Shown in pieces: positions 11,275 to 24,043 of a stretch of 37,523 bases of DNA. This DNA comes from a virus. The notes below the pieces were generated by a model. It was not told the DNA's origin. It saw only the letters and a program-made list of their open reading frames with translations, and did no database searches. A program made the translations under genes and the position numbers. Position 1 is the first letter of the stretch; every line of letters begins with the position of its first letter. Location of the stretch: IMG/VR virus record IMGVR_UViG_3300046009_001639, positions 1 through 37,523 of that record. The stretch is one strand, 5' to 3'.

Positions 11275-13137
11275 TTAAATAAACGTGCGTTCCTTCTCAG
11301 CAAAGAGTTCATCAAGATTGACAACCACTCTTTTGTTCTGTTCGTACTTTGATAGGAATGGATTTTTAAGATGGTGTGTCTGGTACTTACCATAGTTGAG
11401 CATCTCTCTTGCTCTGATCTCACAGAACCAAAGAGCCATTACCATATCTGTCTTACCCTTAGTCGTAGGAGACCAAGTAATTAACTGCTCTATTAGAGCC
11501 TTAATGTTTTCAGTTTGATCTGAAGGCAAATGTATTAGGTTATCCCTATGGTGCTTACCATCAAATTGCTTAGTACCAAATAAGGTAGCCATAGATGCAA
11601 CACCGAAACCTGCATCCCATTTATTATTACCAGTATGGTGTTCTTTAAACTGTACACCTTTAGATGCTAAGTGCATCTTGATACCTTCATCTTGTGTTAA
11701 GAAAGATTGAAATGCGTTCTTCTCTACTATCCACTCACTAGGACCATACAGGGATGTCCAGTCAAATATTAAATTTCTAATAGCAGCAGGGCTAGGCCGC
11801 GTAATCTTGATAGCATCTACGATGTAGCGTTTGTTACTAGCTCTATCTATTGCATAACAGATAGCTGCGGTATCTCCTACCATCGCAGGATCAAGTCCAC
11901 AGATAAAAGTAAAGCCATTTAAATCTCTTGGGTGTCCAGGATGACCTGCGGTTAATCTACCCGACTTACGCATACCATCAATAGATCCACGAACACAGAC
12001 TGGGTCAAAGGCTGCATCATCTGATATATCTTGTTGCTGGTAAATCAAAGCCCAGGTTGAAGCATCCATAGATTGGCGTTCGTTATATAGGTTACGCCCA
12101 TTCCATCTAGGGTAAAGATTAGTTACTGGATCCTTCTCAGTCTCTTCCTGACCATCAAAGGGTTGATCGGATGCGGGCCATAAGGTTTCCCATTTATCGG
12201 GATCATCATCTACTGTAAGTAGAGCTGGCATTGCTAGGTAGGACCAAGGTACTAGGCCACCAGGATATCTATCGTTGTTGCGTAGTTCTTTATATAAATC
12301 AACTGAGGCAACACGGGTACCTATGATAATAAGTTTACCTGTGGGGTTAAGACGAGATCTAACATCTTGGGTTAACCACTTGATCTGTCGTTCAAAGTCA
12401 TTAGCATTGGATAGAGTTACAGCATCGTCTACTATAATCATATCTGCTCGTTTACCGTAGATCTGACCGCCAATACCAACTGCTTCTATATTGGGATCCT
12501 TCTCACCAGATTCACGCAATTCATCACCGAAGGTAACGCGAGTTGCTTGCCAGGAGGCCGACTTAGATTTAAAACCAATACCGGCAGCGTAAGCTGACTG
12601 GAGGGCCTCATACTGCGGATGGGTAAGTCTTTGCTTTATAGCGTATAAAAAGTCTGCGGCTAATCTTTGAGTTTGGGAAACTATTAAGACTCTAAAGTTT
12701 GGGTTCTTACAGACCTGCCAGGTGACGTAGTCAATTGTAATAGTCATTGACTTGGCGTGGTTGGGTGGAATGTTTAGAAGTATGCGGTTATTAGCTAATC
12801 CTTTTTCATACTTCATAGAGGGGTGCAACCAAGAAGGTTGCCCGACCTCAATCATATCTACTAAATTTTGTTGATGGGGAAAGGTCTTATTATGTAAGAA
12901 GCGATCCCTGAACTGGGCGAAGGTAATCTCATTTACATCACCTAGTGCAAAGTTCTTATCTCTAAGACCTAGGCGGGTTCTATCTACCTTGTCTGAGAAT
13001 ATCTTGTCTGTCCTGCGGTAGTACTCATAAGTCTTAATGGATTTACCGGCGGAGGCACAGGCTTGCTCTATCGTCATACCTTCTGCTACGGAATTTAAAA
13101 TAATCCGCTTGCCGATATCTGCTGAGTTCTCAGCCAT
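11275..13137 (-). CDS. terL: Terminase large subunit (packaging ATPase-nuclease), 620 aa
   Basis: It drives DNA into the procapsid and cuts the concatemer. The ATPase domain has a variant Walker A, PPNHAKSM (residues 124-131), and Walker B ADMIIVDDA (231-239). The RNase H-like nuclease domain begins near FICGLDPAMVGDTAAICYA and continues to ADMVMALWF. Residues ~1-60 form an extra N-terminal helix-turn-helix-like unit (GMTIEQACASAGKSIKTYEY), which resembles a small-terminase DNA-binding domain; no separate small subunit was seen. It is the first gene of the leftward structural operon and reads away from the non-coding hub at 13138-13795. Confidence 0.92.
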   Translation of the reverse strand: MAENSADIGKRIILNSVAEGMTIEQACASAGKSIKTYEYYRRTDKIFSDKVDRTRLGLRDKNFALGDVNEITFAQFRDRFLHNKTFPHQQNLVDMIEVGQPSWLHPSMKYEKGLANNRILLNIPPNHAKSMTITIDYVTWQVCKNPNFRVLIVSQTQRLAADFLYAIKQRLTHPQYEALQSAYAAGIGFKSKSASWQATRVTFGDELRESGEKDPNIEAVGIGGQIYGKRADMIIVDDAVTLSNANDFERQIKWLTQDVRSRLNPTGKLIIIGTRVASVDLYKELRNNDRYPGGLVPWSYLAMPALLTVDDDPDKWETLWPASDQPFDGQEETEKDPVTNLYPRWNGRNLYNERQSMDASTWALIYQQQDISDDAAFDPVCVRGSIDGMRKSGRLTAGHPGHPRDLNGFTFICGLDPAMVGDTAAICYAIDRASNKRYIVDAIKITRPSPAAIRNLIFDWTSLYGPSEWIVEKNAFQSFLTQDEGIKMHLASKGVQFKEHHTGNNKWDAGFGVASMATLFGTKQFDGKHHRDNLIHLPSDQTENIKALIEQLITWSPTTKGKTDMVMALWFCEIRAREMLNYGKYQTHHLKNPFLSKYEQNKRVVVNLDELFAEKERTFI

Positions 13138-13147
13138 TTAACTCCCC

Positions 13148-13168
13148 TGTGGATAAACCTGTGGATAA
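13148..13168. other. Two tandem DnaA-box-like sites (possible replication start)
   Basis: Positions 13148-13156 and 13160-13168 both read TGTGGATAA, the complement of the classic DnaA box TTATCCACA, repeated with a 12-base period. They lie 11 bases upstream of the terminase start and next to an AT-rich stretch (13178-13230), the arrangement expected of an origin with an unwinding element. One more copy occurs at 19471-19479 inside a gene, probably by chance. Actinobacterial boxes are often TTGTCCACA, so use by the host DnaA is unproven. Confidence 0.45.
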
Positions 13169-13206: not shown

Positions 13207-13229
13207 AATATTATACTGGAGATAATATT
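13207..13229. promoter_or_regulatory. AT-rich perfect inverted repeat with divergent -10-like boxes
   Basis: Eight-base arms AATATTAT (13207-13214) and ATAATATT (13222-13229) flank seven bases. On the minus strand the repeat contains a perfect TATAAT, suitably placed to serve the terminase operon. On the plus strand TATTAT or TATACT could serve a rightward transcript. No good -35 hexamer was seen for either. It could be a promoter-operator, part of an origin, or both. Confidence 0.4.
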
Positions 13230-13230
13230 A

Positions 13231-13424
13231 CACTACACCTGCCGCTTTGCGTATGTTGTCTGGTAACTCCCGAAGGAGCTACAGCGACTGAGGGGTAAAA
13301 CCTTCGCTCGCCCTTAGGGGGCATCGCGTAGGTTTACCGAAGCGATGTGGTCGTAAAACTTAAAGCGGTTCGTTTTACTCCCCTACTATATATAAGGCGG
13401 GAAATTAACTCCATTTCCCGTTTT
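13231..13424 (+). ncRNA. Candidate structured small RNA (unknown class) ending in a terminator-like hairpin
   Basis: No convincing coding frame. Helices found by eye on the plus strand: P1 closes the element by pairing CCGCTTT (13242-13248) with AAAGCGG (13362-13368). Inside lie hairpins 13263-13282, 13283-13308 (AGCGA/TCGCT plus AGG/CCT), 13310-13322 and 13322-13347 (ATCGC/GCGAT plus GTA/TAC). A further hairpin, 13353-13359 with 13372-13378 (GTAAAAC/GTTTTAC), holds the P1 3' strand in its loop, which would make a pseudoknot. The loop GGTAAA (13294-13299) can pair with TTTACC (13333-13338). A terminator-like hairpin follows at 13398. Orientation is inferred from that hairpin. It could instead be a packaging or origin DNA structure. 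Confidence 0.4.
13398..13424 (+). terminator. Terminator-like hairpin after the folded segment
   Basis: CGGGAAAT (13398-13405) and ATTTCCCG (13413-13420) form a perfect 8-bp stem with a seven-base loop, followed by TTTTCT. The U-tract is short, so termination may be partial. It would end a rightward transcript that begins near 13220. Confidence 0.5.
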
Positions 13425-13795
13425 CTGGTAATAAATCTTTATAAATGTGATACACCTCACTTACAAAGTATATCAAAACGGACATATCGGGCTATATCCA
13501 GCCAGCTTCACTTTAGCAAATATTTTTATATAGAGTACATAATACTAACTCATCTCTATATTTAACACCTGGGGTCGCTCGGCTGGCTTGTGTGGTGTTT
13601 GCTGAGTGTGTATGCCTGTCCGATTTGCTATGGTTAGCGGTTAGCAGATTGTTAGATAAAATCCCCGGGCGGCCTACCCCTAGGCGCCCTCCCGTTAACA
13701 ATAACCCGGCCTTAGATCCGGGCAGCTCTTACAATTTAAATGCCTAGCAAGAGTAATTAGATTAAGGCCACCTACTAACTAAGGAGATCTATCTA
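13425..13795. other. Non-coding leader region before the rightward cassette
   Basis: About 370 bases with no convincing gene; short frames here lack ribosome-binding sites and resemble no protein. The first half is AT-rich. The second half has a hairpin at 13667-13689 (GGGCG/CGCCC and CCTA/TAGG with one bulged G) and another at 13705-13722 (CCCGG/CCGGG). A direct repeat GGTTAGC lies near 13632-13645, just before a TAAAAT -10-like box at about 13656. This probably holds the promoter and leader of the first cassette gene, which has AAGGAG upstream of its ATG. Confidence 0.45.
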
Positions 13796-19357: not shown

Positions 19358-19746
19358 AACAGTATCCCATCTTCTAGCTTTAAGAACCCCACTAGTTTAG
19401 TACGACTAGTCTTGTTAGCAAACTCAGTGGTAATAGGTAGCCACTTATCCTCCCACTTAGGCTGAGGTATTGTGGATAAGTTAAAGCCCCATATACCCTC
19501 AGGTGTGGCGTTGATATACCAAGGAGTGAGTGATCTAATTCCTGCTGCCATAATTAAACCCTGATACTTACTCTCTTCAATAAGTAGATCAGGGTAGTGG
19601 GTCTTGCGGGATTTTAATTCTATAAACATCTTATGTTCTAGTGATATGCAATCCCAATTGTCAAACTCTTCCGACTTCTCTAAGTCTGAGTAGTAAAACT
19701 CCTTGAGATAGTCTAAAAGTTCCGGTTCTTTTAACTCTATGCCCAA
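19354..19746 (-). CDS. PD-(D/E)XK nuclease-like protein, 130 aa (tentative)
   Basis: A TTG start at 19746 overlaps the sigma-factor stop. The core DNWDCISLEHKMFIELKSRK carries an Asp followed by a Glu-x-Lys strand (I-E-L-K), the signature of PD-(D/E)XK nucleases. HYPDLLIEESKYQGLI after it resembles the helix with Gln/Lys found in that fold. The protein ends in a strand-rich segment. Restriction-like or repair-type cleavage is possible; the substrate is unknown. Confidence 0.55.
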   Translation of the reverse strand: MGIELKEPELLDYLKEFYYSDLEKSEEFDNWDCISLEHKMFIELKSRKTHYPDLLIEESKYQGLIMAAGIRSLTPWYINATPEGIWGFNLSTIPQPKWEDKWLPITTEFANKTSRTKLVGFLKLEDGILF

Positions 19747-20372
19747 GGAGTTTCACCACCAAGTTTATTCTGCAACTTACGCAAAGCTGCGGTAGACCTG
19801 CGATCAGCAGTGGATGTAGCACACTCTAAGTACTGGCCTATTTGTTGAAGAGTAAAGTTATCGTGGTATCTCATCTGCAATATGGTCTTATCCTCTTGCC
19901 CTAACTTCAGATAACACTTCTTAATATCTATTAGGATAGCCAGCAGGTTGCCACCCTCAGCAGGAGTTGACTGCTTACGAGGTGTGCCATCGTTGATCAT
20001 CTCTTGTGCTTGTTCAAGGACTGTGCCATTAACAATGGAAGCAATAACAAATGGAATTAGTTGGGCAATAATTGTTGTATCGTAGAAGGCTTCATCACTT
20101 GTCTTGTACCCAGCCTTGCGAGCCTTCTCTTTACGAGCATATCTTTCTGCAACTCTACGCATTTGATAGGCAATACGTCTTTCATTCTGTTCACGCTTAT
20201 CAGGATTAGGTTCATTAAGTAGATCAGTAAACTGTTGACCACGACCAATAGCCCACAGATAACACTCTTGCCTTACATCTTCAGTGTCAACCCATCCTTT
20301 AAACTTACGAACAATAACGTAAGTAACTGAAGGTACTAACTCATAAAGAGTTGGGTGTAATTCAGGTGTCAT
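19737..20372 (-). CDS. Sigma-70-family-like transcription factor, 211 aa
   Basis: The N-terminal part (residues ~12-45) contains WVDTEDVRQECYLWAIGRGQ, which resembles sigma region 2. The C-terminal ~50 residues (LGQEDKTILQMRYHDNFTLQ, then IGQYLECATSTADRRSTAAL) form a sigma region 4-like helix-turn-helix. It could redirect host RNA polymerase to phage promoters, or act only as a DNA-binding regulator if it lacks a working region 2. Encoded between the DUF1599-like and nuclease-like genes, with overlapping ends. Confidence 0.68.
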   Translation of the reverse strand: MTPELHPTLYELVPSVTYVIVRKFKGWVDTEDVRQECYLWAIGRGQQFTDLLNEPNPDKREQNERRIAYQMRRVAERYARKEKARKAGYKTSDEAFYDTTIIAQLIPFVIASIVNGTVLEQAQEMINDGTPRKQSTPAEGGNLLAILIDIKKCYLKLGQEDKTILQMRYHDNFTLQQIGQYLECATSTADRRSTAALRKLQNKLGGETPWA

Positions 20373-22964: not shown

Positions 22965-23787
22965 TTAGTAGGGCATCCCTTCTATACATACGACCATACT
23001 CATCTGCATCACTGATCTGACACACAGAGTAGTTTACAAATAAAGTAGCAAAGTCTGAGCCATCTGCTGTATGTGGTCCAAACCTATTCTTAACTGGTGC
23101 AACCTTTAAAGTTTTGTCTAAAGGATCAAAGCCAAGGGTAAGTATTAGTGCTGGTAGTTGTGAGACCTTACCGTGAATAGCCCTGCGGTGAGGTGGGAAG
23201 TTAGTCTTGCCATACTCAGTTTGTTCGCTGACGTGGTGTAAAACCATCACACAGGCTTCGGTCTTACGAGCCATATCGTGGAACTCCACCATAATAGCTC
23301 GCAGTCCTGCCCACTCATTATCAGTTTCAGCAGCCACATTCATCAGGTTATCAATCACAATCAACTCTGGTGGAATACCAAAGAGTTCAACATAAGCCTT
23401 GATCTCTAGCTCAATATCATCTAGTGATGGTGATGAGTCAAAGACAAACTGTATGTTGGACATATTATCTAGGTGCTTATCGTAGTAATGACGGTTACTA
23501 TTTAAGTTTGCTTCCACCAGTAGTTGACTGTGTCCTGATAGGTGAGAGGCTGCTCTCATCATCACTGTTGCTATGTCGGTATCAGCCGAGAAAAATAAAG
23601 TTGGAACCTTTGCTTTAACTGCATAGATAAGAGCAAACATACTCTTGCCAGCATTAGGCGCAGCAGCAACCATACATACCTGACCTCTACGAAACTTGAT
23701 CTGCTTTACAGCAAGATCTTTCCATACATCAGGTAGTGGTGTTGCATTGGTAGTACTACCACGCCACGCTCTATCTATGTTTAGCAA
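22945..23787 (-). CDS. DnaB/RecA-like ATPase (replicative helicase-like), 280 aa
   Basis: Walker A is APNAGKSM (residues 43-50) and Walker B LIVIDN (142-147). A later VMVLHHVSEQTEYGK matches motif H3 of DnaB-type and KaiC/RadA-type ATPases. No N-terminal DnaB domain is present, so the protein is only the motor, like several small phage helicases. The start is TTG 23787 inside the WhiB gene end; no better start is in frame. Neighbouring Hjc-like nuclease and primase genes support a replication role. Confidence 0.72.
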   Translation of the reverse strand: MLNIDRAWRGSTTNATPLPDVWKDLAVKQIKFRRGQVCMVAAAPNAGKSMFALIYAVKAKVPTLFFSADTDIATVMMRAASHLSGHSQLLVEANLNSNRHYYDKHLDNMSNIQFVFDSSPSLDDIELEIKAYVELFGIPPELIVIDNLMNVAAETDNEWAGLRAIMVEFHDMARKTEACVMVLHHVSEQTEYGKTNFPPHRRAIHGKVSQLPALILTLGFDPLDKTLKVAPVKNRFGPHTADGSDFATLFVNYSVCQISDADEYGRMYRRDALLSDSQVQ

Positions 23788-24043
23788 CGTAATCCTCTCT
23801 AGGAAGAGTTATCCCTCTTAGCTGTCTAATTCTTTTTCTTTTTGCCGCAGTTATGCCGCCCCAAGTACCGAAGCGTTCCTTGTTGATTCCCCATTCTGCA
23901 CACTCTGCAAGGTGGGGACATATCTTGCAGACGTTTATAGCCTGTTGAGTGTGGACTCTATCTCCATCCTCTACTTCAGGAAAGAAAAACTCCACACCCA
24001 CTTCGGCACAAGATGGGTTCTCATAATTCCAGGGAACCCGCAT
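23771..24043 (-). CDS. WhiB-like iron-sulfur transcription regulator, 90 aa
   Basis: The four cluster cysteines are C12, C39, C42 and C48 in the pattern C...CxxCxxxxxC, followed by FGTWGGITAAKRKRIRQL. The GxWGG turn and the basic C-terminal helix contact sigma factor and DNA in this family. WhiB proteins are confined to Actinobacteria and their phages. Phage versions are known to repress host whiB genes or affect septation and superinfection. This one may switch transcription between operons. Confidence 0.92.
   Translation of the reverse strand: MRVPWNYENPSCAEVGVEFFFPEVEDGDRVHTQQAINVCKICPHLAECAEWGINKERFGTWGGITAAKRKRIRQLRGITLPREDYVAKHR

Follow-up and report, generated by a model that had tools for sequence, protein, structure and literature searches.

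The window, as we call the whole stretch of 37,523 nucleotides of virus DNA analysed here (IMG/VR record IMGVR_UViG_3300046009_001639), carries on its minus strand the gene terL for the large terminase subunit, and ahead of this gene lies a series of promoter-like and folded features that together form the element under study. The TerL protein also matches the terminase RNase H-like domain, though weakly and at a score under the cut-off. ARAGORN found no tRNA or tmRNA genes in the window, which contains no second copy of the element. Further along, the minus strand encodes a sigma-factor-like protein at 19737-20372 (PHROG 354, E 6e-9) and a WhiB-like regulator at 23771-24043 (PHROG 472, E 7e-15), which together indicate an actinobacterial host. 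The features of the locus are as follows, from upstream to downstream.

13446-13461, minus strand: CRP/GlxR-like dyad AGTGA-N6-TCACA, centred about -70 from the putative transcription start
13398-13420, minus strand: inverted repeat CGGGAAAT-N7-ATTTCCCG, directly upstream of the -10 box; sequence and spacing kept in relatives
13380-13394, minus strand: promoter-like block TATATATAGTAGGGG, near-invariant among about 150 distinct relatives
13349-13384, minus strand: P1 hairpin AGGGG-A-GTAAAAC / GTTTTAC-GA-CC, with inner stem 13353-13378 and a hypervariable loop
13322-13347, minus strand: helix S1, CATCGC (13342-13347) with GCGATG (13322-13327); 0 of 500 arm swaps as stable
13294-13338, minus strand: helix S2, GGTAAACCTACGC (13326-13338) with GCGAAGGTTTTACC (13294-13307), crossing S1
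13310-13322, minus strand: P3, C-rich mini-hairpin GCCCCCTAAGGGC, of varying register
13275-13300, minus strand: most conserved block UUUUACCCCUCAGUCGCUGUAGCUCC, 94-96% mean identity in 30 diverged relatives
13263-13282, minus strand: hairpin GUAGCUCC-UUCG-GGAGUUAC, in the minus-strand minimum-energy fold
13234-13254, minus strand: 3' boundary of the conserved unit (ATACGCAAAGCGGCAGGTGTA), kept in close relatives
11275-13137, minus strand: terL, large terminase subunit of 620 aa (PHROG 38, E 7.7e-63), the gene behind the element

Promoter-like region and flanking sequences

The promoter-like block occupies a fixed place upstream of terL and follows the inverted repeat at rigid spacing; it contains a predicted -10 box, TATAGT, at 13385-13390, which would place the start of transcription at about 13383 on the minus strand, and no match to the -35 consensus was found there. 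Repeat and TATA block occur together only once in the window. An earlier note on this DNA had taken the hairpin at 13398-13424 for a terminator; its stem (13398-13420) is indeed present, but on the minus strand it is this same repeat, which by its position upstream of the -10-like box is part of a promoter and not the 3' end of a transcript. In 143 relatives the centre of the dyad falls almost exclusively at two distances from the first G of the RNA, about -70 and about -54, and elsewhere in the window such dyads are not enriched (7 found, 17.6 expected). The dyad itself suggests binding of a host CRP/GlxR protein. Upstream of the dyad, at 13511-13523, lies a block ATATTTGCTAAAG that recurs in the ct2KA10-like phages considered below.

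Conservation is high from the inverted repeat to the 3' boundary and drops ahead of the ribosome-binding site of terL. Between element and gene the window has another inverted repeat, AATATTAT-CTCCAGT-ATAATATT (13207-13229); relatives have different repeats in its place, which surround a CCAGTA/CCTAGTA core and remain self-complementary. Two exact TTATCCACA 9-mers, 12 nt apart (13148-13168), immediately precede the terL start codon. These are the DnaA-box-like sites to which attention had been drawn before; they are real, but confined to close relatives, and because such lineage-specific boxes are not conserved with the element, the idea of a replication origin finds no support in them.

Relatives and linkage to terL

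Relatives were collected as metagenomic fragments (IMG/VR contigs) by means of an exact 30-base piece and the TerL protein, and nhmmer placed the element upstream of terL in nearly all the contigs so gathered; a degenerate DNA pattern that is silent on terL added at least about 100 further loci. The element is present in 206 of the 216 related viral stretches examined. In all 197 loci that could be tested, the contig being long enough, terL lies downstream on the same strand at a distance of 0-609 nt, so that the element was never seen away from the gene, and many of these loci had been found by the DNA pattern rather than by TerL. In some relatives the element is separated from terL by small ORFs or by tRNA-like sequence, with the order of the two retained, and such tolerance of inserts marks the element as a discrete unit. 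The tRNA-like sequences occur in five loci (L108, L123, L171, L099, L130); two others (L068 and L196) share an additional insert in this position (ACACGGCGCTGTCAGTCGCTCGGTC..., flanked by hairpins).

Phages of this group are plentiful in the metagenome-derived virus collection that was searched, and no close cultured member of the group was found. BLAST of the element DNA against cultured phages returned chance pieces only, and one pattern scan of bacterial genomes gave five stretches, all of them devoid of the element and hence attributed to chance. The earlier note had recognised no known RNA family, and Rfam 15 agrees: among all its families, including phage pRNA, 6C, 6S and riboswitches, there was no match at the curated cut-off for the window or 14 relatives, and relaxed thresholds (E up to 10) yielded matches at chance level only. 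Literature searches found no description of such an RNA. The element upstream of terL is a genuine, previously undescribed RNA element.

Folding and covariation

Taken as RNA, the minus strand of 13225-13430 folds far better than expected (z -4.02, with none of 200 dinucleotide shuffles as good), whereas the plus strand is near chance (z -1.87, 7 of 200) and was rejected as the RNA for its weak folding. The folded strand is thus sense with terL, being the coding strand of the terminase gene; over 55 relatives the mean z is -1.83 for sense against -1.21 for antisense. The pairings drawn in the earlier note exist at the coordinates given, and the folding beyond chance that it supposed is found on the minus strand, not on the plus strand that it had used. 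Since RNAalifold was uninformative on a plain MAFFT alignment owing to indels, the helices were tested singly.

The best-supported part of the element is P1, the fifth hairpin of the earlier proposal (13353-13378), which emerges strongly supported. Relatives have other sequences in place of its stem GTAAAAC/GTTTTAC, among them GCAAAGC/GCTTTGC, GCAAATC/GATTTGC, GTAAAGT/ACTTTAC and GCAAATG/CATTTGC, and in nearly every case the arms are complementary; between this inner stem and the outer pairs there is a tandem G.A, with GA opposite GA often seen in relatives. P1 has 23 double-change cells compared with 7.1 in shuffles (0 of 500 as good; 18 distinct sequences) and none of 300 arm swaps is as good; such controls, here and for the other helices, ignore relatedness, which is partly corrected, for P1 only, by a count on the TerL tree, where the stem type has changed at least 25 times with pairing intact in 89 of 89 cases.

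S1 and S2 covary as well. For S1 none of 500 shuffles reaches the covariation score, which comes from only 3 double-change cells; in close relatives none of 500 arm swaps is as stable as S1, nor as S2 (GGTAAACC.../...GGTTTTACC), and S2 is not apparent in the more distant sub-group. The two helices cross and in the window overlap by two bases, which implies either a pseudoknot or two alternative folds. The match GGTAAA/TTTACC lies within S2: it is a real pairing, but part of a hairpin stem and not the kissing loop once envisaged. Another proposed pairing, a closing helix of AAAGCGG (13242-13248) with CCGCTTT (13362-13368), is present in the window but lost in close relatives; it is absent from L023, L022 and L027, in which the element is otherwise nearly identical, and also from L143, and shared descent can explain why it scores better than shuffles (1 of 500).

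P3 is favoured by arm swaps (0 of 300 as good), as is P4, CGGGC/GCCCG, which in distant relatives takes the place of the 13263-13282 hairpin (0 of 300); with fixed anchors neither P3 nor P4 reached significance, the support for both coming from these looser tests only. The window's own hairpin at 13263-13282 gained no support from arm swaps (234 of 300). The block UUACCCCUCAG..CGCUGURGCUC keeps its 94-96% identity across 30 diverged relatives, matching the conservation of the terL coding sequence. A small leader peptide was rejected as an explanation: 45 of 110 distinct cores have no sense ORF of 15 aa, and ORF positions are variable. Distant relatives end their conserved unit in TTTTAGTGGGGATAG, and in 20 of 85 of them a GC hairpin stands directly before this end, giving a hairpin followed directly by T's, a predicted intrinsic terminator, at the end of the leader; after the RNA no intrinsic terminator is predicted in the window or in any of its 25 close relatives. 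The earlier suggestion that the terminase is neighboured by a folded phage RNA belonging to no recognised class is supported by conservation, covariation and the lack of an Rfam match, but it was mistaken in strand, boundaries and two of its pairings.

The region upstream of terL in Beephvirinae and ct2KA10-like phages

Cultured phages with the best-covered TerL matches include the Streptomyces Beephvirinae (cluster BF podoviruses), 41-42% identical. Eight of these, aligned upstream of terL, have two CRP-like dyads, an inverted repeat analogous to that at 13398-13420 and in the same place, and TATATATA(A/C)TGGGG or a near variant, followed by a covarying C-rich hairpin similar to P3, a near-invariant block TCGGGATCAT..CTCC and a GC-rich hairpin. 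Their promoter-like block, TATATATAATGGGG or near variants with a TATAAT-like -10, stands where the window has its own promoter-like block. In Immanuel3, terL opens a rightward late operon, whose other genes include those for lysin, portal, tail, capsid and holin. According to the records, the terminal repeat measures 253 bp in FlowerPower, 275 bp in Immanuel3 and 276 bp in Manuel; in each of the three it terminates within GGAGTG|AGTCCCC, at a distance of 30 nt from where GTTGTTAA begins. Another 138-149 bp inward comes the putative +1, and the centre of the proximal dyad is at -55 to -57. Since about 140-150 bp separate the end of the repeat from the start of the promoter downstream of it, a packaging cut site at that end in Beephvirinae would be a feature separate from promoter and RNA.

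By analogy with this spacing, the terminal-repeat boundary of the window may lie near 13535, about 150 bp from the +1 near 13383, in which case the contig is probably permuted. The window also has a sequence, GACCCCAGGTGTTAAAT (13560-13576, minus strand), that matches the GACCC..GGGTTGTTAA found in Beephvirinae about 30 nt before the end of their repeat. The ct2KA10-like phages (L216-L295; TerL 46% identical) have before terL an extended region of their own that looks structured and contains an inverted repeat followed by TATCTTATATAG; it has no sequence match to the element and was rejected as a form of it.

A proposed structured leader for the late transcript

Comparison of relatives demonstrates the promoter-like layout, the strand, the covarying RNA structure and the linkage to terL. 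How is this combination to be understood? In the best-supported reading, the element is a folded RNA that is conserved, belongs to no known family and probably serves as regulatory leader to a late-gene transcript; more precisely, and with moderate confidence, we read it as the promoter and structured 5' leader RNA of a terL-first (late) transcript on the minus strand. RNA polymerase would start near 13383 from a promoter composed of the TATAGT box, an inverted repeat over the -35 region and a CRP/GlxR-type dyad at fixed distance, and since repeat and dyad are fixed features of this promoter, it is probably activated or repressed through them. The first 140 nt or so would fold into P1, the crossing helices around the C-rich mini-hairpin and the conserved C-rich strand, and this leader might then control whether polymerase or ribosomes proceed into terL and the genes behind it. 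It might do so by conditional elongation as at lambda PR'/6S/tR', by acting as an RNA antiterminator, by regulating the translation of terL or by being released as a small RNA; we infer transcription itself, action in cis and the mechanism of control from the sequence. The minus-strand fold, the terL linkage, the covariation of P1, S1 and S2, the fixed distances of promoter and dyad, the layout in Beephvirinae and the drop in conservation before terL all speak for such a leader, and we also count in its favour the sigma-factor-like and WhiB-like genes and the gene order kept despite inserts. Its designation as late is by analogy with the Streptomyces relatives, since most genes behind terL in the window have no match to a named family. 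The lack of a -35 consensus match and of a terminator in the window, and the fact that S2 is not apparent in the distant sub-group, weigh against the leader reading. A hairpin followed by T's is found in no more than 20 of 85 distant relatives and in none of the 25 close ones, so a simple terminator/antiterminator switch is not conserved, which argues against a strict copy of lambda 6S/tR'. It is an unlikely, bolder extension of the leader reading that the crossing folds or pseudoknot of S1 and S2 form a new class of RNA switch, gating a late packaging operon and coupled to metabolism via the host CRP/GlxR site, beside the terminal repeat.

A doubtful alternative is that the element makes a free small RNA of about 140-190 nt that acts in trans by means of its C-rich strand (UUACCCCUC) or P1 loop, either of which would pair with G-rich ribosome-binding sites in host or phage messages, so that terL would be a mere neighbour. 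This would account for its own promoter-like block and discrete boundaries, the C-rich segments and hypervariable loop, the hairpin with T-run at the 3' end in 20 relatives and the tolerance of inserted genes before terL; yet the element never parts from terL, the window and its close relatives have no terminator, and no target was identified. The proximity to the inferred terminal-repeat boundary, as in Beephvirinae, and the nature of the upstream blocks, which are dyads accompanied by a promoter repeat kept in sequence, could instead point to a region working as DNA, an operator or terminase recognition site with its repeats in double-stranded or cruciform form. We regard this as quite unlikely, because P1 stems vary freely with pairing kept and often contain tandem G.A, as expected of RNA, the sense strand folds better than antisense on average, and the repeat boundary of Beephvirinae lies some 140-150 bp upstream of the RNA.

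That only the DNA sites matter, the late promoter being an ordinary one and its 5' UTR folded by chance, would fit the promoter parts being the most fixed in spacing, but the transcribed part is as conserved as coding sequence and its helices covary, so we consider it very unlikely. Finally, a packaging RNA joining the motor of terminase and portal, after the fashion of phi29 pRNA, would explain the invariable linkage to terL, the restriction to phages and the multiple helices with a possible pseudoknot; it is nevertheless highly improbable, given that no pRNA family of Rfam matches, that TerL is a large terminase of PHROG 38, unlike the phi29 ATPase, and that nothing was found linking the RNA to the TerL protein.

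The leader reading has wider implications, as late-gene control in actinophages is poorly understood. An arrangement of promoter, leader RNA and CRP-type site that is kept while the RNA sequence changes would offer an entry to the timing of packaging and lysis, and its layout raises the question of whether the phage reads host cAMP signalling, which cultured Streptomyces Beephvirinae with the same layout make testable in laboratory strains.

Comparison with known systems

The pRNA of phi29 is a multi-helix phage RNA with its gene near one genome end beside packaging functions; the element resembles it in size, in its several helices and in its presumed placement near a genome end beside packaging genes, but differs in matching no Rfam family and in its motor protein. 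With the actinobacterial 6C small RNA it has in common C-rich loop or strand segments, whereas the overall fold is different and neither the window nor its relatives match 6C in Rfam. The put RNA of HK022 consists of two adjacent stem-loops that bind RNA polymerase and suppress termination. By analogy, the element may also provide the 5' end of a phage transcript with a folded RNA capable of cis action on polymerase, although its fold, comprising P1, S1 and S2, is longer and has more helices than the two hairpins of put. In the late region of lambda, the PR' promoter with an embedded regulatory site is followed by the 6S RNA leader and tR', under the Q antiterminator. A promoter with an embedded site and a short leader ahead of a late operon may recur in the element, and some relatives have at the leader's end a hairpin and T-run like tR'; the window differs in having no terminator and in its conserved, covarying leader, and no Q homologue was found among the ORFs scanned. 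A further parallel, in layout, is the terL leader of Beephvirinae: there is no detectable sequence match to the RNA and none is annotated in these phages, so that the apparent homology rests on layout, but both have the same succession of repeat end, CRP-like dyad, inverted repeat, TATA(A/G/C)T before GGG, C-rich hairpin, GC hairpin and terL.
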